Origin: a virus
Length of the DNA: 31,933 bases
Direction: 5' to 3' (one strand)
IMG/VR virus record: IMGVR_UViG_3300037808_001156
Coordinates: 1-31,933 of that record
The notes beneath the pieces are model-generated. The model searched no databases. It was not told where the DNA came from and saw only the letters and a program-made list of their open reading frames with translations. A program made the translations under genes and the position numbers. This document shows, piece after piece, positions 5,101 through 31,933 of this stretch (its first letter is position 1; each line of letters opens with the position of its first letter).

Positions 5101-5388
5101 TTACTCACTATTCTTTTCTCGTAGATAGTTTTCGTATTCCTCGCGCGTTAAGGCTTGAATCTCTTCAGTGACTTCAACTTTGAGTTCTTTCTTAAAGAAT
5201 ACGTCGTGTAAGGAAGTGAGCATTTCCATACAGCAATCTACACAATACTTCAACACTCTATCTTGTGCCCAATCCTTTAGGTCTTCACCTATGTCAATAG
5301 TTTTGAGAAACTCAATAGATTCCTCAACCACATAGGGTTTTGTACAATCGTCATTCTGGCATACGCAAATCGAAATATCTTTACTCAT
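5101..5388 (-). CDS. small Cys-rich hypothetical protein
   Basis: The start codon overlaps the last codons of the ligase gene (8-base overlap), so translation is probably coupled. The 95-residue product has a Cys-rich N-terminus (C8, C10, C15 in ISICVCQNDDCTKPYV) and a second cluster YCVDCC (C49, C52, C53). These could form one zinc site bridging two helices. The C-terminal third is charged and helical (TEEIQALTREEYENYLREK). No family is recognised. It ends one base before the zinc-ribbon microprotein, so two consecutive genes in this operon may bind zinc. Confidence 0.65.
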   Translation of the reverse strand: MSKDISICVCQNDDCTKPYVVEESIEFLKTIDIGEDLKDWAQDRVLKYCVDCCMEMLTSLHDVFFKKELKVEVTEEIQALTREEYENYLREKNSE

Positions 5389-6181
5389 AATCTAACCTCG
5401 GTCTCAAATACTTCGGATGTCGAGGAGCCCCTCCATCAGTTAAACCAAAGTATTCGAATGTAATTATGTCGCCGATTTTAGGTGGGTTATCTCGTTCAGC
5501 ATCTGTGAATCCAACTCCAACATGAAATGTTCGCTCATTTCGTTCATCAGTCCATGTGCAGATACATCCTCCAAGTCTTCCTTCATGCCGACCTTTGCCA
5601 GGTAAGTGGTCAATTACTGTTGCTTCTGCATCTTCAAAAATCTTAACTTTCAAAATGTTCTTGCTTCTCTTTCGTTCATATCTGCTGTTGGGATTTCTAA
5701 TCATTACTCCTTCTCCTCCTATCGCAGTATACTCGTCATGAAATGTTTGCAAACTTTCTTTGCTCTGAATTACAGTTTGTTCAACAACTTCAACATAATC
5801 TGGTAGAGCCAATTGCTTAAGATTGTCGTATACTATGTCAAATGTAAACCCATCTAAGTTTGGAGCATCAAACACGAAATAACGAACATTCTTCCATCTT
5901 TCATCTGGATTATGTCTTTTTACTACAGAACATGTCTCTTGGAAATTACCAATGGGACTTCCATGGCTAGTAAATACCAACTCGCCATCTAAGTGACATG
6001 GCACACCTTTTAATGGTTCTGTGAACCATGCAGGAGCGTGTATGATATTATTTCCGCGCGTAAGGAGCTTCTCGCCATCCCAATACGCACGAATACCATC
6101 TATTTTGAAACTCATGAGCCAGGATGTAGGGTCATGTTTACTACTATTGTATTTCTTTGCGAGCATGACTAAATTTGACAT
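5381..6181 (-). CDS. ATP-dependent DNA ligase
   Basis: It joins nicks by the adenylyl-enzyme route, probably sealing Okazaki fragments during viral replication. From ATG 6181 the protein has 266 residues. The nucleotidyltransferase domain shows motif I SFKIDGIRAYW (nucleophile K26), LDGELVF, motif III YFVFDAP, motif IV EGVMIRNP and motif V ILKVKIF. An OB-fold follows (FHVGVGFTDAE... IITFEYFG). This is the minimal two-domain type found in viruses and some bacteria. The frame stays open to an ATG at 6253, but a TATA box at 6205-6210 lies about 26 bases upstream of ATG 6181, and family members begin close to 'LAKKY', so 6181 is preferred and the mRNA would be almost leaderless. It is transcribed against the tail genes on both sides. 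Confidence 0.9.
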   Translation of the reverse strand: MSNLVMLAKKYNSSKHDPTSWLMSFKIDGIRAYWDGEKLLTRGNNIIHAPAWFTEPLKGVPCHLDGELVFTSHGSPIGNFQETCSVVKRHNPDERWKNVRYFVFDAPNLDGFTFDIVYDNLKQLALPDYVEVVEQTVIQSKESLQTFHDEYTAIGGEGVMIRNPNSRYERKRSKNILKVKIFEDAEATVIDHLPGKGRHEGRLGGCICTWTDERNERTFHVGVGFTDAERDNPPKIGDIITFEYFGLTDGGAPRHPKYLRPRLDYE

Positions 6182-6200
6182 ATATCTCGGATAAATACCA

Positions 6201-6216
6201 AGCATATATACTTTCC
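6201..6216 (-). promoter_or_regulatory. archaeal TATA/BRE promoter of ligase operon
   Basis: On the minus strand the sequence reads GGAAAG followed by TATATATG. The centre of the TATA element is about 26 bases upstream of the ligase ATG at 6181, the normal distance from TATA to transcription start in archaea. The purine-rich GGAAAG is in the position of the BRE. This predicts a leaderless ligase transcript. Confidence 0.6.
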
Positions 6217-6235
6217 TAAAATTAGCGTGTAGGGC

Positions 6236-6246
6236 AAGCTTTAATA
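6236..6246 (+). promoter_or_regulatory. possible TATA element for tail tube operon
   Basis: AAGCTTTAATA lies about 37 bases upstream of ATG 6280. With a start site about 26 bases downstream it would leave a leader of roughly 12 bases containing AGGT. It faces away from the ligase promoter, so the 6182-6279 gap would be a divergent promoter region. The match to a TATA box is weak. Confidence 0.3.
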
Positions 6247-6279
6247 AGAACAAAACTCATCAGACTTTAGGTAATAACG

Positions 6280-9782: not shown

Positions 9783-10490
9783 TTGACACAAGAAGAAGCA
9801 GATTCAATCATTGATACAATCAACGACCGTGCAACGGAAGTTCGACAGCTAATAATTACAATAGGCTCTATCCTTGCGCTTCTCATGCCCGCTGTTGAAA
9901 TGCTGGGTATTCTCGACATTACACCCTACGGTCAAGGTGACGATGAGTGGATAGGTGATGATAATTGGGAATGGGAAGATGACTTCACCTGTGGTGATGG
10001 TTCAACTATTCAAGCCTCTTTGGTCGATGACGGCTACAAGAATTGCCGTGATGGTTCCGATGAACCCGATGAGCCTATTGTTATTCCTCCCACAGAAAAC
10101 AATACTACGGTTGTAATACCGCCTGATAACAATAATACGAGCAATCAGACTACCAATGAAACTATTGAAGAAGATTGCGCCCCCAAAATGTGGGATGCCT
10201 TTCATCAATACGACAATAATACCGGCAACATAACCCTACATTGGGATGCCGACCTTACTTGTGATGATGCACCACACAACTTAACCTTGATTTGGACCTT
10301 CTATCATAATGATACAGGGAATTGGTCGGGTATTCAAGAGGAACACACCTATGAAACCTATTATCAGAATTGGGATTATGTGAATATATCATTCGCTGTT
10401 CCCGAAGGTCGATACGACATATTCTCCACTTTCAGATTCAATGATAATTATACAATTGGAACAGATTGGTATGCTGTGGAGTTGTTATGA
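9783..10490 (+). CDS. membrane-anchored protein with LDL-receptor-A-like motif and many N-glycosylation sequons
   Basis: The TTG start is supported by GGAGGTGA seven bases upstream. The 235-residue protein begins with a short acidic helix and one hydrophobic segment (about residues 22-46, QLIITIGSILALLMPAVEML), then an acidic Trp-rich linker. Residues 68-94 read FTCGDGSTIQASLVDDGYKN followed by CRDGSDE. This matches the calcium-binding half of an LDL-receptor class A repeat, with only two Cys (C70, C88) of the usual six. About a dozen N-x-S/T sequons follow (NNTT, NNNTS, NQTT, NETI, NITL, NLTL, NDTG, NWSG, NISF, NYTI). I recall truncated LDLa motifs of this type in surface proteins of Marine Group II archaea. 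Position between tape measure and adhesin suggests a virion or cell-surface role; that role is inferred. Confidence 0.7.
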   Translation: MTQEEADSIIDTINDRATEVRQLIITIGSILALLMPAVEMLGILDITPYGQGDDEWIGDDNWEWEDDFTCGDGSTIQASLVDDGYKNCRDGSDEPDEPIVIPPTENNTTVVIPPDNNNTSNQTTNETIEEDCAPKMWDAFHQYDNNTGNITLHWDADLTCDDAPHNLTLIWTFYHNDTGNWSGIQEEHTYETYYQNWDYVNISFAVPEGRYDIFSTFRFNDNYTIGTDWYAVELL

Positions 10491-19835: not shown

Positions 19836-20183
19836 TCACAATAAAGGAAAATCGCCGTTAGTGGACCGTTTTGACTGTCGGTGCCGCGCATCGCGACTCT
19901 TGCCTTCAGTTCCATCGAGGAACTCAGGACAACCTTTTACCATGATTGGTAAGATGGTCTTAAGCTGTCTGCACGCGTTGCCGTTCTTTGACATTATTAC
20001 TGGAAATCCAAGTGACTGTAGATTAACATCATGCACGAAATAGATACACCCAGGGCAGTCGTACTTAGACATTTCGAGTAGTTCTTCTCGTAGTTCTTTT
20101 GAAGTCTTATCCTTCGTGTCCATGTGCCATGCTTCAGCCAACTCAATAAGAGCAGGCTTATTCATATCGTCAAATGTACTCAT
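19836..20183 (-). CDS. small protein with SAP/HeH-like N-terminus and Cys cluster
   Basis: The start overlaps the stop of the upstream AbrB-like gene (ATGA). The first 40 residues (MNKPALIELAEAWHMDTKDK, then TSKELREELLEM) match the helix-extended-helix pattern of SAP, LEM and Rho-N domains, which bind nucleic acid. The middle holds DCPGCIYFVH and two further Cys (NACRQL, KGCPEF), a possible metal site. The C-terminus is basic (SRDARHRQSKRSTNG). A DNA- or RNA-binding role is likely from these features. No family name is recognised. Confidence 0.55.
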   Translation of the reverse strand: MSTFDDMNKPALIELAEAWHMDTKDKTSKELREELLEMSKYDCPGCIYFVHDVNLQSLGFPVIMSKNGNACRQLKTILPIMVKGCPEFLDGTEGKSRDARHRQSKRSTNGDFPLL

Positions 20184-20539
20184 GCTGTAGCTCTCCTAGC
20201 AGCGGCTCTTGCGGCTAGTGGCTGAACATGAAGCTCAAACTCTTTGGCATCGAACTTAACTAGAACTTCTTCACCAATTGCCCACAAGCTATCGAGTTGT
20301 CGTATCATTGCAGTTGGAATGCGCATCCACTTTTGGTCATCATAAGTTGTCCTATTTCGTACGCGAGTAGTGTCGTCTCTAGCATAATCTTCTTCTTCAA
20401 CCAATCGAAAAACCACCGAGTTATCATCGTTGATTAGTCCTTTCCAGTTAGTTCCTTCCACAATTCTCATAGCTATGTGCTTTGGAAGTCCGACGTATCG
20501 TCCTTCTCCTAATCGCACAATCTTCATTGTTCCATACAT
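20180..20539 (-). CDS. tandem AbrB/SpoVT-like DNA-binding protein
   Basis: ATG 20539 is supported by AAGGAG at 20548-20553, eight bases upstream. The 119-residue protein has two related halves. The first, TMKIVRLGEGRYVGLPKHIA, and the second, QKWMRIPTAMIRQLDSLWAI followed by GEEVLVKFD, both show the 'v.iP......l.l..Gd.v.v' pattern of swapped-hairpin AbrB domains. Such proteins bind DNA as transcription regulators or antitoxins, and two copies in one chain could act as a built-in dimer. A basic Ala/Arg tail (AARAAARRATA) ends the protein. The first 92 bases overlap the end of the upstream hydroxymethylase gene in another frame. It may regulate viral early genes. Confidence 0.6.
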   Translation of the reverse strand: MYGTMKIVRLGEGRYVGLPKHIAMRIVEGTNWKGLINDDNSVVFRLVEEEDYARDDTTRVRNRTTYDDQKWMRIPTAMIRQLDSLWAIGEEVLVKFDAKEFELHVQPLAARAAARRATA

Positions 20540-21545
20540 TTTGTTCGCTCCTTATATTTTCGTACCAGACTCTCATTTTATCGTTTACTAGGTATCTGGT
20601 GAAATCTTCGTTTTCGTAGTATTTGCTGCAAATTAGTGCCACTAGCCCTCTTAAGTACGTGTTCTCTATACAGTCAAGGTAGGGTAGTGTATATATAGCT
20701 TTCCCTTCTTCGACACTTGTGTATAAGTCAGTGAGCGCTGCCAAAATCTGATGTTTGTCTTGTAATTTCATAGCAGGACAGAGGCTACCATTCTTATGCC
20801 GACCAGTTTTGTTCATGTAGTAATTAAGTCGGTCATCTAGAAGTTCGAAATCTGACGGATATACGTGAAAGTTGTTTTGGAATACAGAATAGGTACCAAC
20901 TTTTGCTCCTATCTCACTTGCCATCATCATTAGTAAATGAGAATAAAGGAAGCAATCTAGATACCAGCCTTTCAATGCATCTTGCGAGCGCATCATGGTA
21001 GTCAAGCAAAGCTTACCATCTATGAATTGAAAGTGGAAGCCATACGTACAAGGAACAAAGTCACGTTCATGACAAGGAATATCCCAACAAAACATACCAG
21101 CATGTCGAGTATTTGGGTTTGTTCTTAACTTTGAAACGGTGTGGTCCCACTGACTAAAATCGTATCTAGCAATAGGATGCTCCATGTGATGTAGAACCTG
21201 TCCATATGTGTAAGGATATTCACCATTTGGAGATGTGCGCCATTTGTCATAGAACTTCCATTCTTTGTGGATAAAACCTGGGTTGAGACCAAGTATGATA
21301 TCGAAGAACTCAGTAATAATTCCAACATGTTGTAAACCAAAGTGAGAGCCTATGCAATTTTGTGGGTCTGACAACACCATAGTAATGTTGTGCAGTTCTT
21401 TCATTCCTGCAGTTCCGCCTTCCTGCATTGCCCAAGTTCCAACAGTTCTATCCTGTTGAGACCCATGCATCTGTAAAACAAGCAATGCTCGTTCGCTCAA
21501 TTTATCTACGTCACTATCCCATATTGGGTGTATTGGTGTTCTCAT
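20448..21545 (-). CDS. predicted dCMP hydroxymethylase (thymidylate synthase family)
   Basis: The 365-residue protein has the thymidylate synthase fold signature: GEYPYTYGQVLHH (E109), RTNPNTRHAG (R147), DFVPCTYGFHFQF (catalytic C166), MRSQDALKGWYLDCF (R186, S187, D189, G193, D197) and NNFHVY. With no gap, D197 aligns with Asn177 of E. coli ThyA and Asp179 of T4 dCMP hydroxymethylase. T167 after the catalytic Cys matches T4 (Cys-Thr), where ThyA has Cys-His. In this family, Asn prefers dUMP and Asp prefers dCMP. The enzyme should therefore make 5-hydroxymethyl-dCMP, or 5-methyl-dCMP, using methylene-tetrahydrofolate. Its start overlaps the polymerase stop (ATGA). The C-terminal basic tail (IRRRTIRRTSKAH) overlaps the AbrB-like gene and may be an extension or a frameshift artefact. 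Confidence 0.8.
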   Translation of the reverse strand: MRTPIHPIWDSDVDKLSERALLVLQMHGSQQDRTVGTWAMQEGGTAGMKELHNITMVLSDPQNCIGSHFGLQHVGIITEFFDIILGLNPGFIHKEWKFYDKWRTSPNGEYPYTYGQVLHHMEHPIARYDFSQWDHTVSKLRTNPNTRHAGMFCWDIPCHERDFVPCTYGFHFQFIDGKLCLTTMMRSQDALKGWYLDCFLYSHLLMMMASEIGAKVGTYSVFQNNFHVYPSDFELLDDRLNYYMNKTGRHKNGSLCPAMKLQDKHQILAALTDLYTSVEEGKAIYTLPYLDCIENTYLRGLVALICSKYYENEDFTRYLVNDKMRVWYENIRSEQNVWNNEDCAIRRRTIRRTSKAHSYENCGRN

Positions 21546-24025
21546 AGTATCACATCCATTCCTATACGCGCGAGAGTCGCGTCGAGTTTCTTGCCAATGG
21601 CATCATACCAAATACTTTGTCTGTCTACAAAGGGTTCCCAGATTTCTGGAACTCCTGCATCTTCATCAATCGGGATAATTCCTTCATGTTCTGGATAGCC
21701 CTCAGGGCATCCCTTTACCTTAACCATAAAGACCCTATCCCCTTCTCCATATGTCCACGAGAAGGCTTCTTGGCCATATTCCACTGCCTTTATGTGTTGA
21801 GCGCGAACTTTGTATTTATGAAGTGGCTTGCTAATAGATTTGGAAAACGATAACTCATGTCCAGGCTTTGCAAACATTTCTGCCTTCTTCTTGTTAACAA
21901 ACTCTTGAATGTCCTTCGTATCTGCACCATTTAAGAGCAGTCGAAATAGTTCTGCTTGAGCAAATCTAAACATTGTGTGAGTATCACTCTTCACTGTCTC
22001 ATATCCGGTGACATCAATCTCAAAATCTTTATCAACGCCTTCTTCCCATACCTTTAATCCTGCGTATCGCTTCTTAACTCCTTCAACCAGCATAGAAGCA
22101 TATTGTTTTTCAAACTTAAGTGACATAGTATGTTCTTCTACGCCAATCGTGAAATCCATATCGATTATTTCTTCTTCTGTCCATGGCACAAAGTTTAGGT
22201 CTACAGGCTTTGTCATGAAATCATTATATGCGTCGTTGATTGTGTCTTGTAATTTGACGAAATACTCTTGACATTCGTGTTTGTCCCAATCATCTGGTAA
22301 TTTAGCGTAGACTGAATCAGTATCTCCATAAATTGGAACTGCCCATTCATCTTGTTCTACCAACCACCAGGTGTATTTAATTAGGAACTCGCCAGTCCAT
22401 GTAATCGCGCGAGCAATACGCTTATCATTCAACCTGAAGCTAGGCAAGCTTGTCACTCCATAAAACGATAGTTGTAGAGTTTTCCAGGCTCCTTGCTCTA
22501 TCCAGAGCTTTTTGTATAGTGCTTCATCTCCATCTTGCCGAGCCTGAATTGCTGCAGCTCTAGTTTTCTGGCGTTGGTCTAGCACATACGATACTGCTTG
22601 AGGAAGGATTCCTTGCTTATCGAGTCTAAAATAAGTCTCATTTACACAACACTTCGGTCCGCTAAATGAGCTAGGAACCATCGTATCTGGAGAGATATTA
22701 CACGATAGAATGATGTTGATATACATGGCCGCTATGTCTAAACATCCAACATTATGGAACACTCCAGCTGGTGGAAGGAACACTTTTGCGGCTTCGAACG
22801 TTTGCTTTATATACGGCGGCTTTGAGGGAAGTATGGTTTTCCCTTTGAAAGTACGTAGTAATTGAGCATCGATTATTCTAGAGTTCATATTCCATGCATT
22901 CCATGGATAAGGAAATCTGCACTGCTGTGCAACATAATACTCAGTAAGTCCGCACTTTTCATCAATGGCTAATGCAGCTTCCACGTCCACTATGTTATAG
23001 AGAATTAACTCTTCTAAATCTTTTCGATTTCCATCCCATGCTTTATCTATTCTTTTAGTAGGTGGAAGCTTACCCCAACCTAACTCGTATTCAGATACGT
23101 ATTTAAGGCTGTAGGAAGTCAGTTCACGTATCCCATCTTTGTTTACGCTTCTTCTACCGCCAACTAATCTCTCATACGCGACTTTCAAATCGAGTATGTC
23201 TAAACCTTTGATGTGAGGCTCAACATGTTGTGAACCCCTCCGTCTAGATGCCCAAGGTTTTTCACCGTATGGACTCAATGTTTGTGCTAATGGGTCCATT
23301 CCATTACCTTCTAGTCTCAACATTCTATTCACTATATATGACATATCGAAATACTCTACATTCCATCCTGTCACAATGTCTGGTCTGTGTTGCTCCCACC
23401 AATCGCAGAAATCTATCCACATTCTCTCTTCAGAGTTTGATATCCGCACAGTAGTGGCCTTACCCATGCGATGTGAATCATACGAATCCCGGATATAATA
23501 GCCATTAAAATCTGCGGACTCTGCGTCTTCTCCTCCTTCCCACCATCCGACAACAGCAATACTGTCAGTGTAGCTGTCGTGCATAGTCATACACAACACA
23601 GGTTCAGGCGTCTTCTCTGTATTGAGACACATATAGGTCTCAATATCTATGTTGCAAACTCTACGCTCATGTGATAATTCTATCTCTTTGTCTACCAAAT
23701 ATCTAGTGACATATTCGACATCAGCTTCCCATGTTTCTGGGAAAGTATTGAGAACTCCTCTATAGTCTTTCCTAGTCAAAGCATCGACAGTAAGTTTCTT
23801 TAACTTCTCTCCTCGAGAGCCAATGTACTCTCCATCTTCATCTATATCTGTAATCTTTCGATTCGCCATAGTCGAGATATTCGCATCATGCTTAGCGTAG
23901 AAGTAAAGTGGGAACCACTCCTCTTTCTGAACAGTCAGCGTACCGCCATCTCTATGCTGTGTCCATATCTCAGGAATTGAGCGCTTCTTATCTTCGAAGC
24001 GTTGTACTACATTTACGATTCCCAT
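21542..24025 (-). CDS. family B DNA polymerase with 3'-5' exonuclease
   Basis: This is the 827-residue replicative polymerase of the virus. The exonuclease motifs are intact: ExoI NIDIETY (D127, E129), ExoII NVEYFDMSY near 220 and ExoIII YNIVDVEAA near 343. Polymerase motif A is LDIAAMYINII (near 428), motif B KTLQLSFYG (near 518) and motif C IYGDTDSVY (near 565). The catalytic Asp residues are present. Motif A lacks the usual SLYPS, and motif B has Leu where most family B enzymes have Asn (K...NS.YG). ATG 24025 follows GAGGTAT and overlaps the end of the kinase/deaminase gene by 13 bases; the stop overlaps the hydroxymethylase start. The unusual active site could reflect use of modified nucleotides, which is an inference. 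Confidence 0.95.
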   Translation of the reverse strand: MGIVNVVQRFEDKKRSIPEIWTQHRDGGTLTVQKEEWFPLYFYAKHDANISTMANRKITDIDEDGEYIGSRGEKLKKLTVDALTRKDYRGVLNTFPETWEADVEYVTRYLVDKEIELSHERRVCNIDIETYMCLNTEKTPEPVLCMTMHDSYTDSIAVVGWWEGGEDAESADFNGYYIRDSYDSHRMGKATTVRISNSEERMWIDFCDWWEQHRPDIVTGWNVEYFDMSYIVNRMLRLEGNGMDPLAQTLSPYGEKPWASRRRGSQHVEPHIKGLDILDLKVAYERLVGGRRSVNKDGIRELTSYSLKYVSEYELGWGKLPPTKRIDKAWDGNRKDLEELILYNIVDVEAALAIDEKCGLTEYYVAQQCRFPYPWNAWNMNSRIIDAQLLRTFKGKTILPSKPPYIKQTFEAAKVFLPPAGVFHNVGCLDIAAMYINIILSCNISPDTMVPSSFSGPKCCVNETYFRLDKQGILPQAVSYVLDQRQKTRAAAIQARQDGDEALYKKLWIEQGAWKTLQLSFYGVTSLPSFRLNDKRIARAITWTGEFLIKYTWWLVEQDEWAVPIYGDTDSVYAKLPDDWDKHECQEYFVKLQDTINDAYNDFMTKPVDLNFVPWTEEEIIDMDFTIGVEEHTMSLKFEKQYASMLVEGVKKRYAGLKVWEEGVDKDFEIDVTGYETVKSDTHTMFRFAQAELFRLLLNGADTKDIQEFVNKKKAEMFAKPGHELSFSKSISKPLHKYKVRAQHIKAVEYGQEAFSWTYGEGDRVFMVKVKGCPEGYPEHEGIIPIDEDAGVPEIWEPFVDRQSIWYDAIGKKLDATLARIGMDVIL

Positions 24026-25026
24026 CGGTATACCTCTATATTAGTGTGCGATAACAGCTCTTTAGCAACAGCATCGCGATAAGAATTATCGTATATAATG
24101 CGGACAATACCCGAGTTGATTAGCGCCTTGGTGCATTCTCCACATGGTTGAGTAGTTGTGTAGATTGTGCCGCCCCTCAATGAACTCGAGGCGTTGAGTA
24201 TTGCGTTGATTTCAGCATGGACTGTACGCTCAAGGCGTAGATTTTCGCCAGATTGCATGCCAGCTCGTGGATTTACTGTACAATGTGGCACACCGCTTGG
24301 CGCTCCATTGTAGCCAATTCCTACTACCTTGTTATCTAGAGCTATTACTGCACCTACGTGACGTGTAAGTCCTGTAGAGCGTCTCTTAGCTAAATGAGCC
24401 ATGCTCATAAAATAATTTGTCCATGTGATTCGATGCTGATTTAGATGTACCATTATTTGGTCAGCCAATTCTTCAGTTGTTTTTCTGTTAGTGACTACAG
24501 TATCTGCATGTAGTAGTGATGATATTATCCCACTACCGCCAATCTTATACTCTGTATGATGGGTGTTAATTTCGATTACATCGTTGGTTCCACACATCAT
24601 CACGTTAACAATGTCATTCTCAAATGCCTCCAAATCTTGTAATTCCATATCTATGCTTTCATCATCTGCTAATAGCGCATTCCATATTTGTTCTATAGGT
24701 CCATTCCACTTTAGGTAGATGTAAGTACATGGAGTTTCTCCGTCAAGCGCTTGGAATATAGGGAACCACTTATCTGCGCATTCCATTCTATTTCTCCAAG
24801 CACTGAATGCTACAGAGCTTGGTATCTGTCTGTCCATTATCAAATCAGTATTTCGCCAATCAATGTCGGCAAATCCATGAGCTTTTCCTAATACGTACGA
24901 GTCGATTGCATCTTTATGGACTACATCTGGTCTTCTACCATGATGTTTGATATCCATTCTACGTGCTAACTCTTTAGCAAGTGTGGTTTTACCTGTTCGT
25001 GATAGGCCTTCAATTACAATAAACAC
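24013..25026 (-). CDS. fusion of deoxynucleotide kinase and dCMP deaminase
   Basis: The 337-residue protein has two domains. Residues 1-190 form a P-loop kinase of the thymidylate/deoxynucleoside kinase fold: GLSRTGKTT at 7-15, and LIMDRQIPSSVAFSAW with the DR and SS residues of the lid and substrate region. Residues about 205-337 form a deoxycytidylate deaminase: YFMSMAHLAKRRSTGLTRHV, GYNGAPSGVPHC, the zinc motif HAEINAI (near 271) and PCGECTKALINSG (near 295). The deaminase makes dUMP from dCMP. The kinase may phosphorylate dTMP or a modified dCMP. A single chain could channel between the two. It is the second gene of the operon headed at 25129 and lies directly before the polymerase. Confidence 0.85.
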   Translation of the reverse strand: MFIVIEGLSRTGKTTLAKELARRMDIKHHGRRPDVVHKDAIDSYVLGKAHGFADIDWRNTDLIMDRQIPSSVAFSAWRNRMECADKWFPIFQALDGETPCTYIYLKWNGPIEQIWNALLADDESIDMELQDLEAFENDIVNVMMCGTNDVIEINTHHTEYKIGGSGIISSLLHADTVVTNRKTTEELADQIMVHLNQHRITWTNYFMSMAHLAKRRSTGLTRHVGAVIALDNKVVGIGYNGAPSGVPHCTVNPRAGMQSGENLRLERTVHAEINAILNASSSLRGGTIYTTTQPCGECTKALINSGIVRIIYDNSYRDAVAKELLSHTNIEVYRWES

Positions 25027-25163: not shown

Positions 25164-26486
25164 CTAATCTTGTTGTGTATCAATTCCACACGTATCCTTC
25201 AGCGCGCGAATGACTTGCGCAGTAGACAGTACAAAGCTTCCCATTCTATGATTAAATTCGTACTTTTCTGCAAGCTCATCAAACCTAGCCTGCCTAATCT
25301 CATTCAACATTCTATCGCAAGATACTGCAATGTCTTGAGCGCTAACCTTACCATTAGCCACATTCACATAACCAGGATATAATGCCGATGCCAATCTTGT
25401 ATACTCATTAGCAAAAGGCATAACTGGTAGAGACTTCAGATGCATTGCTTCTCTACAAGCGCAACCACCATTTGCTTCTTCTACAAATAGTGAGCAATGA
25501 ATAGTAGCATGCGCTAAAAGATTTGCATATTCTACACGGCTGAGATTATCTTTAGATGGCATGAAATAATTTGGTAGCTTAGATAGTTCCTCATTCGTTA
25601 TGTATTTCTGTCCAGGATTGGTAGCAGTCCAAACAAAGTCATCTCGTAGAGTTCCAAGTATTTCCATAGCCTCTTGAAATAGTGCGAAGTTGGTATAGTC
25701 TGGATTAGTAATTCTATTTGGGAACACTATAAGGTCCTTGCCTATAGAATACATATTGTCATCTAGCCTATCCCAACCAACTTCTACTGCAGCGCTAAGT
25801 TCCGTTTCAGAATATCCAAATCTAAATACGTAGGCTTTCTTAGTGAGAGCTTGTACCACATGGTCGGTATGAGTATGTGCTGCACCTTCCATGAATTGGT
25901 TTAGATTTCCATCGCAGCAAAATCCTGCTATATCCGCGCGTAAAGCGCCCTCTACTTGTCTCCACCAGTTTGCAGACATTTCTTTGTAGTCTTGCGCTTC
26001 TGGTGAAGTTTTTGCATGCAAAGGACTATCAAGGAAATAGCAGCAATTCACTATGAAAAGATTGTCTGGAGTTTTTACTTCCTTCTTTGGATGTCTGAGA
26101 TACGATAAGTAATTTCCAGTTTGTTCTGGTATGTTGTTCCAGAAAATGTAATTGTCTGCTTCACTCTGGAACCAGTCATCAATCGTGTGAGTGTTCTTTT
26201 CATTAAAGAAATATCGATATCTGTTAGCATCAACTGGAGCATCTGGAGATGTATGCCATAGAACTACATTATCAAGTGGAATATCCAAGCCCTTTAACAA
26301 CATATCATAATCCAAGCAATTTGGTTCGTCGGGAACCAGAATGTTGAATGTAAGTTCGCAGTCAACTTGCTTGAACAGTTCCTCCATAAATCCCCTCATC
26401 ATATTTGTATTGGAGTCTCCCATTAGGAGCCACTGTTTTCCATCATTTACGCTAGGTTGTAGCGTGTACATTATGCTTAACTTCAT
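25164..26486 (-). CDS. GT-B type glycosyltransferase
   Basis: The 440-residue protein starts at an ATG overlapping the stop of the epimerase gene (ATGA). Its C-terminal half carries the donor-binding pattern of GT-B enzymes: KDLIVFPNRITNPDYTNFAL near 250, the strand FVWTATN, and EEANGGCACREAMHLKSLPV near 333-352. The last element corresponds to the 'E..G....EAM..G.PVi' nucleotide-sugar motif of GT4-like families. The N-terminal half (NILVPDEPNCLDYDMLLKG ... LWHTSPDAP) would form the acceptor domain. No membrane segment or signal is seen, so it is cytoplasmic. The acceptor could be hydroxymethylcytosine in viral DNA, a virion protein or a host glycan. The co-operon enzymes probably supply its donor sugar. 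Confidence 0.75.
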   Translation of the reverse strand: MKLSIMYTLQPSVNDGKQWLLMGDSNTNMMRGFMEELFKQVDCELTFNILVPDEPNCLDYDMLLKGLDIPLDNVVLWHTSPDAPVDANRYRYFFNEKNTHTIDDWFQSEADNYIFWNNIPEQTGNYLSYLRHPKKEVKTPDNLFIVNCCYFLDSPLHAKTSPEAQDYKEMSANWWRQVEGALRADIAGFCCDGNLNQFMEGAAHTHTDHVVQALTKKAYVFRFGYSETELSAAVEVGWDRLDDNMYSIGKDLIVFPNRITNPDYTNFALFQEAMEILGTLRDDFVWTATNPGQKYITNEELSKLPNYFMPSKDNLSRVEYANLLAHATIHCSLFVEEANGGCACREAMHLKSLPVMPFANEYTRLASALYPGYVNVANGKVSAQDIAVSCDRMLNEIRQARFDELAEKYEFNHRMGSFVLSTAQVIRALKDTCGIDTQQD

Positions 26487-27436
26487 CCTTCCTTCCTCTG
26501 TTCATATAGCCAGTCGACATTTTCTTTCAACCCTATTCCAAACGGTTTCATAGGTCTCCATCCAAGTTTCTGGCGAATTTTTGTGGTATCTGGCTTGCGC
26601 TGGACTGTGTCTCCAGCCCATGCGGGTTTGTGTGTGATAGTCAACTGACTCACATCTATAGATAAATAGCGAGCAATCATAATTGCCAGATTCTTAATAG
26701 AAATGTTCTCTTCACTAGCTATATTCAGAGTAGTGTTGATGCATTCTTCATCCAAAGTTGTGCACATCATAGCGAATGCGCGCGCAACATCATCTGCATG
26801 AGTAAATGAGCGGGTCTGCTTTCCGTCTCCATAAAGATACAAGTTCTTTTTGTTGGCTATCAATCGTCTAAACACATCAGGAATAACATGAGCTTTTCCA
26901 TCCTTAATATCTTCATGTTCTCCTGGCCCATATACATTGAATGGCCTACCAATAATAAACTCTCTATCGTACTTCTCACATAAGGCGCGAGTGAATCTCT
27001 CTCCTTGTAGTTTAGTAAAGCCATAGTTATTTGTTGGAGGAGGAATCTTATACTCATCAACATCTGATTCTACACAGATTTCAAATCCATTTTGGAATAC
27101 CATACTAGATGAGCAGTATACGAATCTTCGAGGAATTCGAGACTTCAAGAATGCTTCTAGCACATTCAAATCTACTCGCGCGTTATGCCTGCAAATATCC
27201 CACTCTTCTTCAGCAAGATACTTTCCACCACCTACTTTTGCGGCCATGTGACAGACAACATCAATCTTGTGCATAACTATTGCGGTTGTTAATTCTGTGA
27301 CTGCATAGGATAAGTCTAATGTCTGTGTAGCAGATTCTTGTAAATCCACCGTCACTACGTAATGGCCTTGCTGTTCTAGTATTGTCTTAATTCTCTGGCC
27401 TATAAAGCCTTCTCCTCCTGTGATTAGTATATTCAT
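26483..27436 (-). CDS. NAD-dependent nucleotide-sugar epimerase/dehydratase (extended SDR)
   Basis: The 317-residue protein has the Rossmann motif ILITGGEGFIGQR (6-15), the active-site Ser region VYCSSSMVF (109-111), YGFTK (Y138, K142) and RPFNVYGPGE. YLYGDGKQTRSFTHADDVAR follows in the substrate domain. This is the standard order of extended short-chain dehydrogenases acting on nucleotide sugars. The AAKVGGGKYLAEE segment and GDGKQTRSFTHADD recall GDP-mannose 3,5-epimerase and related UDP-sugar epimerases or UDP-xylose synthases. The exact substrate cannot be read from the sequence. It lies between the dehydrogenase and glycosyltransferase genes with four-base ATGA overlaps on both sides, so the three probably act in one pathway. 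Confidence 0.85.
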   Translation of the reverse strand: MNILITGGEGFIGQRIKTILEQQGHYVVTVDLQESATQTLDLSYAVTELTTAIVMHKIDVVCHMAAKVGGGKYLAEEEWDICRHNARVDLNVLEAFLKSRIPRRFVYCSSSMVFQNGFEICVESDVDEYKIPPPTNNYGFTKLQGERFTRALCEKYDREFIIGRPFNVYGPGEHEDIKDGKAHVIPDVFRRLIANKKNLYLYGDGKQTRSFTHADDVARAFAMMCTTLDEECINTTLNIASEENISIKNLAIMIARYLSIDVSQLTITHKPAWAGDTVQRKPDTTKIRQKLGWRPMKPFGIGLKENVDWLYEQRKEG

Positions 27437-28641
27437 TGTTCATCCTCCCATACAAAATTGGAATTGGTGCCTAGCGTTCCAGACGGGTCTACTACTTTAG
27501 TGTCTCGCCCAAAACTAAGCGAATTCGAATAATCATCGTGCGCAGTGGCCAGAATAACTACATCGGCTTTGGTTATTTTTTCTTGAATATCATCATCGAT
27601 TACAGATATCATATTCATATCGTATCCACGTTCGGTCAATTCTTTATGCACATCTACTATAGGGTCGTGAACGTGTATGTCATAACATTCTTCTGCTATG
27701 CAACTATCGATTATTCTAAAGCTTGGGCTTTCTCTGCAATCGTCTAATCCAGGTTTGTAAGTCAGACCAAGAATCACAACTGACTTTCCAGCCAACGAAG
27801 TATCTGGGAACAGGTCAGTTATCAGTCGTCTGTCTAGTGTCTGATTGTAATGGTCAGCTGCTGATGCAAGAAGCGACTTAGTTCCTGTAGCATGTGCTAA
27901 CATCTGCCAATCTTTGTTTAAGCAATACGACCCAACAAATGAGGGGAAAGATATTCTTCCTCTCTTATAACCATCAGTCATCATGTTTCGAACCACTCGA
28001 TTATTTGCTCCCAACATTTCAAATTGCTCGGATAATTCTGTGCCAGCAGCAAACTCAATGTATCGCATGATGTTATTAGAAATCTTGGCACACTCTGCTT
28101 CGAGCGCTGTTCCAGCTATGAACTTCGGAAAAACCCTACCAAACGCTCGCATGAACTCATTAGTAGTTATTATCTGCGCAGTTCCAGTTGAACCAATAAT
28201 TTGAGGTAGTTCATCTAGTTCATCTAAACCGTGTCCAAGAAGTAATCGTTCTGGTGCATGCCAAATAACTCTGTCGAACTTTTCAGAAATAGCATCACAA
28301 GTTCCAGGTGCTACTGTGGAGCGCAACACAACATTAGTTTCCAATTCTAAGTCCTTTACAATACTCTCTATATGCCTAAGAATAGGATATCCATCTTCTA
28401 CTGGAGTTCCTACAGAAATGAATGTCCACTCACAAGGCTCGTCATCAGTGATGAGATATTCTTCTACTTCATCGTGAAGAGTCTCATTGAGATACGGCTC
28501 TTCCCATGGTAAAGTTCCAGTGATAACCTGATTTAACAGTTCCTCATTGATATCTACGAACTTAACATGATGTCCTTTAGTCATGAGCCACGCTCCTAAA
28601 GGAGCGCCCACTCTTCCTGCACCTATGATTCTGATTCGCAT
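27433..28641 (-). CDS. UDP-glucose/GDP-mannose dehydrogenase family enzyme
   Basis: The 402-residue enzyme oxidises a nucleotide sugar to its uronic acid in two NAD-dependent steps. It shows the N-terminal Rossmann motif RIIGAGRVGAPLG, FISVGTPVEDG, RSTVAPGT and HAPERLLLGHGLDELDELPQ. The helix EAECAKISNNIMR (K187, N190) and the catalytic loop SFVGSYCLNKD (C240, K243, D244) are also present. The C-terminal domain has VVILGLTYKPGLDDCRESPS. All catalytic residues are in place. UDP-glucose and UDP-HexNAc or GDP-mannose specificity cannot be separated by eye. It heads the sugar operon behind a TATA box; AAGGAG at 28648-28653 also precedes the ATG. Confidence 0.9.
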   Translation of the reverse strand: MRIRIIGAGRVGAPLGAWLMTKGHHVKFVDINEELLNQVITGTLPWEEPYLNETLHDEVEEYLITDDEPCEWTFISVGTPVEDGYPILRHIESIVKDLELETNVVLRSTVAPGTCDAISEKFDRVIWHAPERLLLGHGLDELDELPQIIGSTGTAQIITTNEFMRAFGRVFPKFIAGTALEAECAKISNNIMRYIEFAAGTELSEQFEMLGANNRVVRNMMTDGYKRGRISFPSFVGSYCLNKDWQMLAHATGTKSLLASAADHYNQTLDRRLITDLFPDTSLAGKSVVILGLTYKPGLDDCRESPSFRIIDSCIAEECYDIHVHDPIVDVHKELTERGYDMNMISVIDDDIQEKITKADVVILATAHDDYSNSLSFGRDTKVVDPSGTLGTNSNFVWEDEQ

Positions 28642-28672: not shown

Positions 28673-29953
28673 CTATTCTATCTTAACGTACTTCTTTCGC
28701 TTTATTGTGGCTTCTACAAGTAAGCCACTGTCTCTAGTCATTCTGTACAGTGTGGAACTTGAAGTCTTTAGTTCCTTTTCCGCGCGAGACCACAAATCCT
28801 TTTTCAATACCCATCCATCATCAGACGGATTGTCTTGTAGAATTGATGCGTATATGCTGCGTAGTTGCTTAGATAGTTTGGATTCTCTAGCATCTTTCCT
28901 TCTAATATGCGCATCCATTTCAAGGAATGGTAGAAGGTAATCCATAATCTCTTTAATCAAGCGATAAGCATAATCAATATCATCCTTAGTAATTTTTGTG
29001 TCGCCTCTAACACTAGCAGAATGAGTAGCTATCACATACATGTGATTGCAATATCTGGAGATAATTGAGGTAGCAATTGCTTGCACTCCTGTGTCTAGCA
29101 TTGTTGTCATGTTCAACAATCTGACATTCAAAGTTTTGACGTATTCCCTAACAGAATCCCAGTTAAACTCGTTAGGTAATCCATTACGTACGCGAGTCCA
29201 CTCATCCTGTGCTTCCTTAGTGAACCATGTTCTTAGTAGTTCCATGTCTTCTGGCACTACACTTTCTATTCCTAACTTTGAGGCATCCAATCGGATATTG
29301 TCGATTCTATTTTGGAATGTTAATCGCTTTGGCAAAACAATTACACGTTGCATTAGACCTTTGTTTAGGAACTCTTCACCTAGGTGTTCTGGTATATACG
29401 ATGTCAGGAATAGACTGAGACTAGAGTAGAACTCGATTGGAGGACCTCTTGCTAATTTCTTCGATATCATATTCTGAGGAGTTCCGATAGGATTCAAAGC
29501 TTTCTCAAGAAAGTTCACTGCCTTTTTCGTATGTGTAGTCTCCATAAATAATGTTGAAGCTTCATCAAAGTGAAGAACATCTGTGGTTTGGAGTATTCCA
29601 GGCTCTAACACTAACTCTCCATTCTCTTCATCATCGTGTTCTTCAGCCTCTCTCCACGTTCCAATAAGACCTGCATCAGTGTAATCATCCAAATCAGCAA
29701 CATCCAAATCGGCAGCTTCCAACATCTGTTTGACAAATCCATATGGTGCAGACTTACCACCACTCGAATCCCAGAACGCGGCAATACTAACTCGCCCATC
29801 TAAACGTTGTGCGCCTTTGACAATAAAGCGACGCTTGTAAATCTGACCAAGAACAAGGTGCATACAAAGCTGAGCATACTTTTCATTGTTGTAGGAATAC
29901 TCGCAGAATACTTTAGTCCAGCGGTCTTGCAAATCGTAGATGTCTTTAAACAT
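28673..29953 (-). CDS. P-loop ATPase, probable replicative helicase
   Basis: The 426-residue protein has a Walker A-like loop AAFWDSSGGKSAP (G66, K67, S68) whose first Gly is missing. The Walker B is DVLHFDEAST (D130, E131), and EFYSSLSLFLTSY lies at the sensor-1 position. Later segments (RVIVLPKRLTF, and a helical region about 250-350) resemble MCM-like and DUF3987-type AAA+ helicases of viruses and plasmids. The C-terminus (KQLRSIYASILQDN... WVLKKDLWSRAEKELKTSSS) is a winged-helix domain, as in archaeal MCM. The start overlaps the primase stop by one base (TAATG), which supports a primase-helicase pair at the fork. The family is inferred; the ATPase core is visible. Confidence 0.7.
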   Translation of the reverse strand: MFKDIYDLQDRWTKVFCEYSYNNEKYAQLCMHLVLGQIYKRRFIVKGAQRLDGRVSIAAFWDSSGGKSAPYGFVKQMLEAADLDVADLDDYTDAGLIGTWREAEEHDDEENGELVLEPGILQTTDVLHFDEASTLFMETTHTKKAVNFLEKALNPIGTPQNMISKKLARGPPIEFYSSLSLFLTSYIPEHLGEEFLNKGLMQRVIVLPKRLTFQNRIDNIRLDASKLGIESVVPEDMELLRTWFTKEAQDEWTRVRNGLPNEFNWDSVREYVKTLNVRLLNMTTMLDTGVQAIATSIISRYCNHMYVIATHSASVRGDTKITKDDIDYAYRLIKEIMDYLLPFLEMDAHIRRKDARESKLSKQLRSIYASILQDNPSDDGWVLKKDLWSRAEKELKTSSSTLYRMTRDSGLLVEATIKRKKYVKIE

Positions 29954-30999
29954 TATATTCCACCATCCGACATGCTACATCCTGGTTCGGTACACATTCC
30001 CTGCGCTTCCATACGTTTACATGAGTATGGATTTAGTATATTATCTATTACATTGGCCACTCTACGCTCTGGCATATACTTTGTCCATTTGCGTTCTGAG
30101 TTGTCGCCAAACTCTTCAATCGCATTACATACTATGCGTGTCGCTTCTCTCCTCGCATCTACGGTGAGAGCAGCTGGCTCTAATCCGTCTCTTGCTAAGA
30201 ACGATAACCAAGAAGCAGTGACTTGTCTTCCAAGGTCATTGACATCTTTATTCTCTAATAGCGCGCGTATGCACGGAGCCAGCTCTTCTTTGTAGATTCT
30301 AGTGACATCTCCAGCTTCCATTTGGATATCATAATCTGTAGCAAAGTCTACTCTTTCTTTGTCGTATGCAGATAAATCCACATCAACAGAACCACGTTTC
30401 CACAGTTTTCGTGAGGTTGTTTTACATATGTCACGGACATTTGCATGCCCTAACCTGATGTCTCGTGTGCTTACCCCGCGGCATACACGGCGGGCCTCTT
30501 CTCGGATATTCATGGTTCCTATTATCCGAATAATTTTAGTCCCGTTTGCTATACTTGTGGGGTCCAGTCCATCTTTAACAGAGAGCGGAATACCTAAGTC
30601 TTTGCACACTTCTTCTTGAAAGTTCCTAACGGCGAAGGATGGACTTTGCAAGTGTGGGTCACAAAAACTGTAGATGTGATAACCTCTTCCACTAAAGACG
30701 TTTGTGTGCAAGATATTTTTCTCTTTGAGGTAGTCGCTAACTTGAAGTGTTAGTTCATTGGCCAGGTCTCCGTGGTTGTCAAAGTCCCAAATCATGCGGT
30801 CCCAGATGCAAGATTCAAATACTGGCTTTCCCCATTCAGTATGTTCTGCATAGTCATACAGATTGGTATAGCAGTTCATTAGCCCATTGTGTCGATTGAC
30901 TGAGTCCCAAAAATCTTCCTCACTCTGAACTATTCTACGCTTTAGTCCAAATTCGCGCGGGAAAGACGAATAGAATCTATCACTCAAGGTCGACATCAT
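29953..30999 (-). CDS. archaeo-eukaryotic primase (PriS-like AEP)
   Basis: The 348-residue protein makes primers for the viral polymerase. The AEP motifs are MIWDFDNHG (D72, D74) for metal binding, NVFSGRGYHIYSF (S103, H108) for nucleotide binding, and KIIRIIGTMNIREEARR near 158 as the third motif. The region after 180 is helical. The C-terminus carries NPYSCKRMEAQGMCTEPGC, three Cys that may hold zinc or cap the protein, similar to PriCT-like ends. ATG 30999 and ATG 30996 are adjacent; either overlaps the upstream nuclease gene by up to 20 bases. Its neighbour is the helicase, so the pair forms a priming module. Confidence 0.85.
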   Translation of the reverse strand: MMSTLSDRFYSSFPREFGLKRRIVQSEEDFWDSVNRHNGLMNCYTNLYDYAEHTEWGKPVFESCIWDRMIWDFDNHGDLANELTLQVSDYLKEKNILHTNVFSGRGYHIYSFCDPHLQSPSFAVRNFQEEVCKDLGIPLSVKDGLDPTSIANGTKIIRIIGTMNIREEARRVCRGVSTRDIRLGHANVRDICKTTSRKLWKRGSVDVDLSAYDKERVDFATDYDIQMEAGDVTRIYKEELAPCIRALLENKDVNDLGRQVTASWLSFLARDGLEPAALTVDARREATRIVCNAIEEFGDNSERKWTKYMPERRVANVIDNILNPYSCKRMEAQGMCTEPGCSMSDGGI

Positions 31000-31933
31000 A
31001 CTGCTCCTTCCAACATATTCGCTTATGTTCTATCGGGCAGTAAGAGCACGGGAAAGGATTTCTCAGCGCTTTCTTGAATCCGCTAAGTGGGTTTTCTTCT
31101 GTTCCTTCTTCAACTGCCAACTTGATTCTGTCTCTTGTAGTTTGAACCTTCTTAATTGCGGAATTGTAAGACCGCGTATTTGGACTTGCGATATCCATTG
31201 TTCCGTCTTTACTCCACAATATGCCTATCTTTGATACTGTCTCATCTGGATTTAGTAGTTCAAACATCCATTTGTATAGGTGGAGCTGAAAGTAATGCTT
31301 GTTAATGTCGGTAATCTTTCCTGTCTTTAAGTCGTAAATACCAATGGTTCCGTCGAGTTCTCTAAAGATTAAATCTATCATTCCAGATATCTCTCCGTTC
31401 TTTACTGTAGTTCCATCTGGAACTTTCATGTAAAGCTCAACACCAACAGGAGCGCCGTATTCTATTAGATTAACCCCAGCTGCGATTAATGTATCAATTC
31501 GCTTTTGGTCGATTGCAAGCACATTATCCATATGCTCGCGCATTTTATCATCGATTACAATTGTTGGGTGGCCTTCATAACTATACTCCTCGATGTATTC
31601 TAAGAATTCGGTTTCTGTTTTGCAGTCCATCATTCCACGATAATACTCTTCCACTATCTGATGGCAGTCAATACCGAAAGTGGTCCAAAGCGCAGAAGAA
31701 CCTTTGACTCCCATGATATTATCAAGTGCCCAAGAGAACTCACACCAATTCATGAAGCCTCCAATCTTAGACTTCGACATGCGCATTGTATGTGGCTTTG
31801 CCACCCCTTGCAACACTTCTGGTTTTCTTGTCAAATGTTCACCTCTTTTTCTACCAACCTTATTGCGCTTCCCATTATGACGCGCAGCTTTGCCCCTAGA
31901 AGGAGCACGCTTAGGAACTCGGTTGCCTGTCAC
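30980..31933 (-). CDS. Cas4-like PD-(D/E)XK nuclease, possibly 5'-truncated
   Basis: The frame reaches the window edge; GTG 31933 could be a start or an internal codon. A highly basic N-terminal 48 residues (KRAPSRGKAARHNGKRNKVG) precede the nuclease. The core shows MNWCEFSW (C64), GIDCHQIVEEYY (H91), GEISGMIDLIF (D187), IGIYDLKTGK (D201, K203) and QLHLYKWM (Q216, Y220). It ends with a Cys cluster FPCSYCPIEHKRIC. One N-terminal and three C-terminal Cys are the Fe-S ligands of Cas4/AddB-type nucleases. No CRISPR genes are near, so the role is probably DNA end processing in replication or recombination. The basic extension may bind DNA. If ATG 31786 or 31780 (MRMSKSKIGG) is the true start, the basic part would be absent. 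Confidence 0.85.
   Translation of the reverse strand: MTGNRVPKRAPSRGKAARHNGKRNKVGRKRGEHLTRKPEVLQGVAKPHTMRMSKSKIGGFMNWCEFSWALDNIMGVKGSSALWTTFGIDCHQIVEEYYRGMMDCKTETEFLEYIEEYSYEGHPTIVIDDKMREHMDNVLAIDQKRIDTLIAAGVNLIEYGAPVGVELYMKVPDGTTVKNGEISGMIDLIFRELDGTIGIYDLKTGKITDINKHYFQLHLYKWMFELLNPDETVSKIGILWSKDGTMDIASPNTRSYNSAIKKVQTTRDRIKLAVEEGTEENPLSGFKKALRNPFPCSYCPIEHKRICWKEQYDVDLE

Follow-up and report, generated by a model that had tools for sequence, protein, structure and literature searches.

The window, i.e. the whole stretch of DNA analysed here (IMG/VR virus record IMGVR_UViG_3300037808_001156, 31,933 bases), encodes a thymidylate synthase homologue that, judged from its residues, very likely uses dCMP as substrate and likely forms 5-hydroxymethyl-dCMP. 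Its gene lies in a replication and nucleotide block together with nucleotide-sugar genes, and the hydroxymethylcytosine is probably decorated with a sugar from an oxidised nucleotide sugar. As best explanation for the enzyme jointly with such a decoration pathway, we favour a deep-branching dCMP hydroxymethylase.

IMG/VR was searched with the hydroxymethylase, the family B DNA polymerase (PolB) and a 440-aa protein of the block, each as single sequence and as alignment. Among 2.9 million viral contigs, these searches found a single relative, IMGVR_UViG_3300030329_006293 (36,770 bases, in the following G001), which from the primase through the tail genes is colinear with the window. Going downstream on the minus strand, the block of the window consists of the following genes:

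30980 to 31933, minus strand: PD-(D/E)XK exonuclease, reaching the contig end (PF12705, E 5e-13)
29953 to 30999, minus strand: archaeal/eukaryotic-type primase-like protein, weak (PF04104, E 0.13; tblastn E 0.002 to a hypothetical protein of HCTV-1; FDNHGD...SGRGYH by eye)
28673 to 29953, minus strand: conserved protein with a P-loop-like SSGGKS (66% identical in G001; no family match)
27433 to 28641, minus strand: nucleotide-sugar 6-dehydrogenase of the UDP-glucose/UDP-ManNAc dehydrogenase family (TIGR03026, E 3.2e-59)
26483 to 27436, minus strand: extended-SDR nucleotide-sugar epimerase (PF01370, E 2.9e-48; YxxxK present)
25164 to 26486, minus strand: 440-aa protein of no known family, candidate glycosyltransferase (position; by-eye motif; 54% identical orthologue at the same place in G001)
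24013 to 25026, minus strand: fusion of an N-terminal P-loop dNMP-kinase-like domain and a C-terminal dCMP deaminase (PF00383, E 5.5e-22; PHROG 174 dCMP deaminase, E 5e-45)
21542 to 24025, minus strand: PolB (PF00136, E 6.8e-26; PHROG 262, E 6.7e-104)
20448 to 21545, minus strand: dCMP hydroxymethylase-type thymidylate synthase homologue, 365 aa (PF00303, residues, MilA profile match)
20180 to 20539, minus strand: small conserved protein that overlaps the hydroxymethylase gene at its end (55% identical in G001; no family match)

Starts and stops overlap at several junctions, e.g. 27433/27436, 26483/26486 and 21542/21545, the last being the 4-base overlap of the PolB stop with the hydroxymethylase start; these overlaps look as in an operon. 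The genes for dehydrogenase, epimerase, 440-aa protein, kinase/deaminase, PolB and hydroxymethylase occur in the same order in G001 with 42–62% tblastn identity, pointing towards a block conserved as a whole in this rare lineage. Pairwise identities amount to 45% for the dehydrogenase, 55% for the epimerase, 54% for the 440-aa protein, 50% for the fusion, 63% for the polymerase and 54% for the hydroxymethylase. The protein with the P-loop-like motif is probably a replication ATPase. An extra gene of G001 between deaminase fusion and PolB (L013, 6535–7116), absent from the window, looks by eye like a nucleotide-binding protein of the SLOG type (YspA-like). The halves of the small protein at 20180–20539 look by eye like AbrB-type swapped hairpins, and it may be a regulator of the hydroxymethylase gene that it overlaps.

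The hydroxymethylase reading frame, which starts with ATG and has exactly the extent first described, gives a product that matches PF00303 (Thymidylat_synt) with E 6.9e-20 and 71.7 bits (cut-off 24.3 bits) and PHROG 160 thymidylate synthase with E 2.1e-25. By these profiles it is a member of the thymidylate synthase superfamily (PF00303). Its catalytic and its substrate-discriminating residue are encoded at:

21048 to 21050, minus strand: codon of the catalytic Cys166 (E. coli C146, T4 C148), followed by Thr167 (alignment, translation)
20955 to 20957, minus strand: codon of the discriminating Asp197 (E. coli N177, T4 D179; alignment, translation)

Aligned with E. coli ThyA, T4 gp42 and further phage enzymes, the window protein shows an intact catalytic set of E79, Y114, C166, R186, S187, D189, H227 and Y229. 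The positions corresponding to Glu58, Tyr94, Cys146, Arg166, Ser167, Asp169, His207 and Tyr209 of ThyA are kept in the window enzyme as well as in the G001 orthologue. C166, T167, R186-S187, D189 and D197 align with C146, H147, R166-S167, D169 and N177 of the E. coli enzyme. In six-frame translation, the window contains the motif C[TH]-x18-RSxD-x7-[DN] at a single place, and 200 base-shuffled windows together yielded one instance. The translation reproduces the spacing reported in the preliminary description, 20 residues from C166 to R186 and 11 from R186 to D197. Since ordinary thymidylate synthases share this spacing, it proves the register and not the specificity, and we dropped it as a specificity argument.

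The diagnostic features are instead Asp at position 177 and Thr at position 147 (ThyA numbering). That both residues are as in T4 had already been pointed out and is borne out by the alignment, in which D197 corresponds to D179 and T167 to T149 of gp42. Among 17 aligned enzymes, Thr at 147 was found in all ten with Asp at 177; the seven with Asn at 177 carry His, Asn or Thr at 147. The signature of canonical dUMP thymidylate synthases, Asn177 with His147, is thus replaced by Asp and Thr in the window enzyme. In MetaGPA, 177 and 147 were the top two positions separating enzymes on modified-cytosine contigs (PMC8670742), and N177D switches ThyA to dCMP with formation of 5-methyl-dCMP, according to mutational work as cited in PMC8670742. 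The window enzyme further contains R147 and S187 (own numbering), i.e. the Arg and Ser that accompany deoxyribose substrates in the MilA paper (PMC5175136), which argues for dCMP rather than CMP as substrate. The proposed switch from dUMP to dCMP is therefore supported by Asp at 177, Thr after the catalytic Cys, the deoxyribose-type Arg and Ser, and the literature on N177D.

Asp197 predicts the base, not whether the final group is methyl or hydroxymethyl. The latter is favoured by the profile matches and by the sugar genes in linkage, since these require a hydroxyl group to act on. A profile of the two orthologues gave the CMP hydroxymethylase MilA as first match in the PDB (E 1.6e-11), with an RB69-type enzyme (9iqu/9iqc) in the top five. 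The best phage BLAST match is Bacillus phage G gp319 with 26% identity. Deep branches of the thymidylate synthase tree lack support, including any grouping with known hydroxymethylases, and the AlphaFold2 model, obtained from a two-sequence alignment, is not interpretable (mean pLDDT 36). The neighbouring "thymidylate synthase" of HF2 was rejected as a relative; it is without thymidylate synthase motifs, looks ThyX-type and is unrelated.

The 6-dehydrogenase matches the three-domain profile TIGR03026 with 200.8 bits (cut-off 189.8). Its catalytic residues Lys186, Asn190 and Cys240 are present, the latter in GSYCLNKD, and its nearest PDB entries are UDP-ManNAc and UDP-glucose dehydrogenases. 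For the epimerase, the nearest solved structures are GDP-mannose 3,5-epimerase and the 4-epimerases of UDP-glucose and UDP-GlcA. Decarboxylating SDRs as a rule carry a TSE motif with a catalytic Glu. A UDP-xylose synthase was consequently rejected for this protein, which has SSSMVF at the place of TSE and thus no such Glu. The 440-aa protein gave no match in Pfam, NCBIfam, PHROGs, PDB sequences or phage records, and chance scores against E. coli GT4, GT9 and Kdo as well as phage DNA glycosyltransferases (hhalign profile-profile, hmmsearch). Its C-terminal EEANGGCACREAMHLKSLPVMP resembles, by eye only, a GT-B motif; the glycosyltransferase role suggested by this motif and by the gene position is unproven. 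Here, too, the AlphaFold2 model was built from a two-sequence alignment and is not interpretable (pLDDT 39), and its Foldseek matches (PDB: LmbT first, E 3e-3; BFVD) were set aside for that pLDDT.

The N-terminal part of the fusion protein shows weak thymidylate kinase matches (PHROG 761, E 3.7e-7; TIGR00041, E 5e-6), and both dCMP deaminase and MafB19-like deaminase models match the protein. In MetaGPA, modified contigs were reported to carry thymidylate synthase domains together with those of dCMP deaminase and MafB19-like deaminase. We regard the fusion as a candidate hm-dCMP kinase and dCMP-removing enzyme. Conserved in G001, it unites two nucleotide-supply steps in one chain. To our knowledge, a dNMP-kinase-like domain and a dCMP deaminase in one chain are unusual. 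Speaking against the favoured reading, a T4-like dCTPase was not recognised among the ORFs scanned, although the window and G001 are both fragments.

From these genes a pathway can be proposed, its first step being the best founded. There are strong grounds to expect that Cys166 attacks dCMP in the presence of methylene-tetrahydrofolate, with Asp197 orienting the cytosine ring, to give 5-hydroxymethyl-dCMP. Phosphorylation of hm-dCMP towards the triphosphate would follow, through a kinase that may be the N-terminal fusion domain, with the deaminase half draining the ordinary dCMP pool, and the adjacent PolB would insert hm-dC instead of dC. The conserved gene order suggests that 6-dehydrogenase and epimerase provide an oxidised nucleotide sugar, i.e. 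a uronic acid or its epimer. In the weakest step, the 440-aa protein might move this oxidised sugar onto the hydroxymethyl group. The viral DNA would thereby be protected against host nucleases. Phages are known to rebuild cytosine to escape restriction and CRISPR.

The preliminary description had suggested that cytosine is replaced or decorated in the viral DNA. This is made likelier by the nucleotide-sugar genes, unmentioned at the time, that are conserved beside the hydroxymethylase in the window and in G001; the sugar itself and its transferase are predictions. In its most specific form, with 5-hydroxymethylcytosine to which a transferase from an unrecognised family joins a sugar acid (glucuronic, galacturonic or another product of an oxidised nucleotide sugar), the proposal is put forward tentatively. 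The sugar genes could also serve another glycan. In particular, DNA with plain 5-hydroxymethylcytosine and sugar genes working for virion or host-surface glycans would fit the 440-aa protein having no detectable glycosyltransferase homology, and nucleotide-sugar dehydrogenases and epimerases do occur in several unrelated phages. We nevertheless consider this arrangement unlikely: in both viruses the three sugar-type genes form part of the replication/nucleotide block, flanked by the ATPase-like gene and the kinase/deaminase, they are coupled by overlapping codons and lie away from the tail genes, and the dehydrogenase genes of the phages Molly_1 and SP-15 adjoin DNA-modification genes.

Less likely still is a dCMP methylase, which would complete the hydride transfer to 5-methyl-dCMP and lead to 5-methylcytosine DNA as in phage XP12 or the halophage PhiN. 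The product of N177D ThyA (as cited in PMC8670742) and the methylated cytosine of the archaeal virus PhiN (PMC4284463) are in accordance with it. However, hydroxymethylases are among the best profile matches, MilA being the first, and what the linked sugar genes produce could not be attached to a methyl group. The position of Trp80 in ThyA matters for hydride transfer. Its counterpart in the window enzyme is ambiguous, Y99 in the phmmer alignment and W96 in that of MAFFT, so it lends no weight to the methylase and was not used to decide between methyl and hydroxymethyl. Ordinary synthesis of dTMP, or of 5-hydroxymethyl-dUMP, from dUMP despite Asp197 is very improbable: although the neighbouring dCMP deaminase could supply dUMP and many of the top phage BLAST matches are Ackermannviridae enzymes of the hmU pathway, both orthologues have Asp at 177 (D237 in G001) and Thr at 147, every panel enzyme known or annotated for dUMP carries Asn at 177, and the literature ties this Asn to dUMP use (PMC8670742).

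Compared with known systems, the preferred dCMP hydroxymethylase shares with T4 gp42 Asp at 177, Thr at 147, the spacing and a gene near that of the DNA polymerase, but the two fall on separate deep branches of the tree, which are without support. T4 relies on host UDP-glucose and a known glycosyltransferase (beta-glucosyltransferase), and no dehydrogenase or epimerase is linked to its gp42 gene. In the RB69-type phage p000v with arabinosyl-hmC, a modification reported for RB69 (PMC6024577), the hydroxymethylase is likewise an Asp/Thr enzyme, and next to its gene lie those for a thymidylate kinase and for viral sugar supply. The latter is thought to proceed via an arabinose-5-phosphate isomerase and a bifunctional protein instead of a 6-dehydrogenase and an epimerase, and the transferase is a different one. 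MilA from mildiomycin synthesis, the best PDB profile match, has the Asp (at 186) and a similar C-terminal extension. In contrast to the window enzyme with Arg and Ser at these positions, it prefers ribose via Lys133 and Ala176 (PMC5175136). Bacillus phage G gp319 carries Asp199 and Thr169 with a dCMP deaminase and also a putative alpha-glucosyl transferase nearby, but no linked dehydrogenase or epimerase is annotated in the region examined. In Microbacterium phage Clock, an Asp-type thymidylate synthase is annotated together with a glycosyltransferase and a thymidylate kinase.

The closest match to the cassette was found in Maribacter phage Molly_1, where gp100–gp103 follow in the order UDP-glucose dehydrogenase, epimerase, glycosyltransferase and thymidylate synthase. 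Its synthase is, however, of the Asn type (hmU type), so this gene order is not specific for cytosine; its epimerase shows TSE in place of the SSM of the window, and the glycosyltransferase shows no detectable homology to the 440-aa protein. The Molly_1 row (L021, 11995–16754; UDP-glucose dehydrogenase, TSEVYGD epimerase, beta-glucosyl transferase and Asn-type synthase) may serve to make xylosyl- or uronyl-hydroxymethyluracil in this cultured phage, and may be a version of the same plan with hydroxymethyluracil and xylose; we found no mention of it in the original Molly_1 paper. Bacillus phage SP-15 likewise has a viral UDP-glucose dehydrogenase in a DNA-hypermodification cluster, where it is used for a glucuronate-bearing base (PMC5977210), but there the modified base is a thymine (DHPU) and the synthases are ThyX-type. 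For Shewanella phage Thanatos, a deoxypentose on cytosine was recently reported (PMC12838424). In Sphingomonas phage PAU (gp182–gp186; L036, 2665–6336), an Asp/Thr-type homologue is located near genes for dTDP-glucose 4,6-dehydratase and dTDP-4-dehydrorhamnose 3,5-epimerase, and a deoxysugar-decorated hydroxymethylcytosine is possible in this phage.

In the open-access literature we found no report of hydroxymethylcytosine carrying a uronic acid, nor of hydroxymethylcytosine in an archaeal virus. The sugar forms on hydroxymethylcytosine known to us are few, namely glucose, gentiobiose and arabinose. If the proposal is true, a virus would combine its own oxidised-nucleotide-sugar pathway with cytosine hydroxymethylation, giving a new and perhaps charged DNA chemistry by a clear, small enzyme set. 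It would also imply a new transferase family, useful in DNA labelling, and extend the modification to viruses of a lineage with archaeal-looking replication genes. If the host is an archaeon, this would be, as far as we could find, the first virus of archaea with DNA based on hydroxymethylcytosine.

The window represents a little-known tailed virus of a rare lineage. It is probably part of a larger genome, since its ends cut through gene modules. Megablast revealed no near relatives among phages, and GTDB genomes contained only distant PolBs, in a Rhodobacteraceae bin. The initial designation as an archaeal virus is not established by these data. By BLAST, PolB is nearest to haloarchaeal tailed viruses (best Halorubrum tailed virus 27, 27% identity), but a tree of ten sequences does not resolve the placement of PolB. 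The matches of the portal and tape-measure proteins come from bacteriophages, and those of the ligase from bacterial and uncultured phages. An archaeal host is thus possible, not shown. The tail region contains a collagen-like tail fibre protein (57–2195) and, within the tail genes on the opposite strand, an ATP-dependent DNA ligase (5381–6253) that occupies the same place in G001 with 66% identity. A further tail-region protein (9783–10490) carries an LDL-receptor class A domain (PF00057, E 3e-5, barely above the cut-off), which is odd in a tailed virus of prokaryotes.
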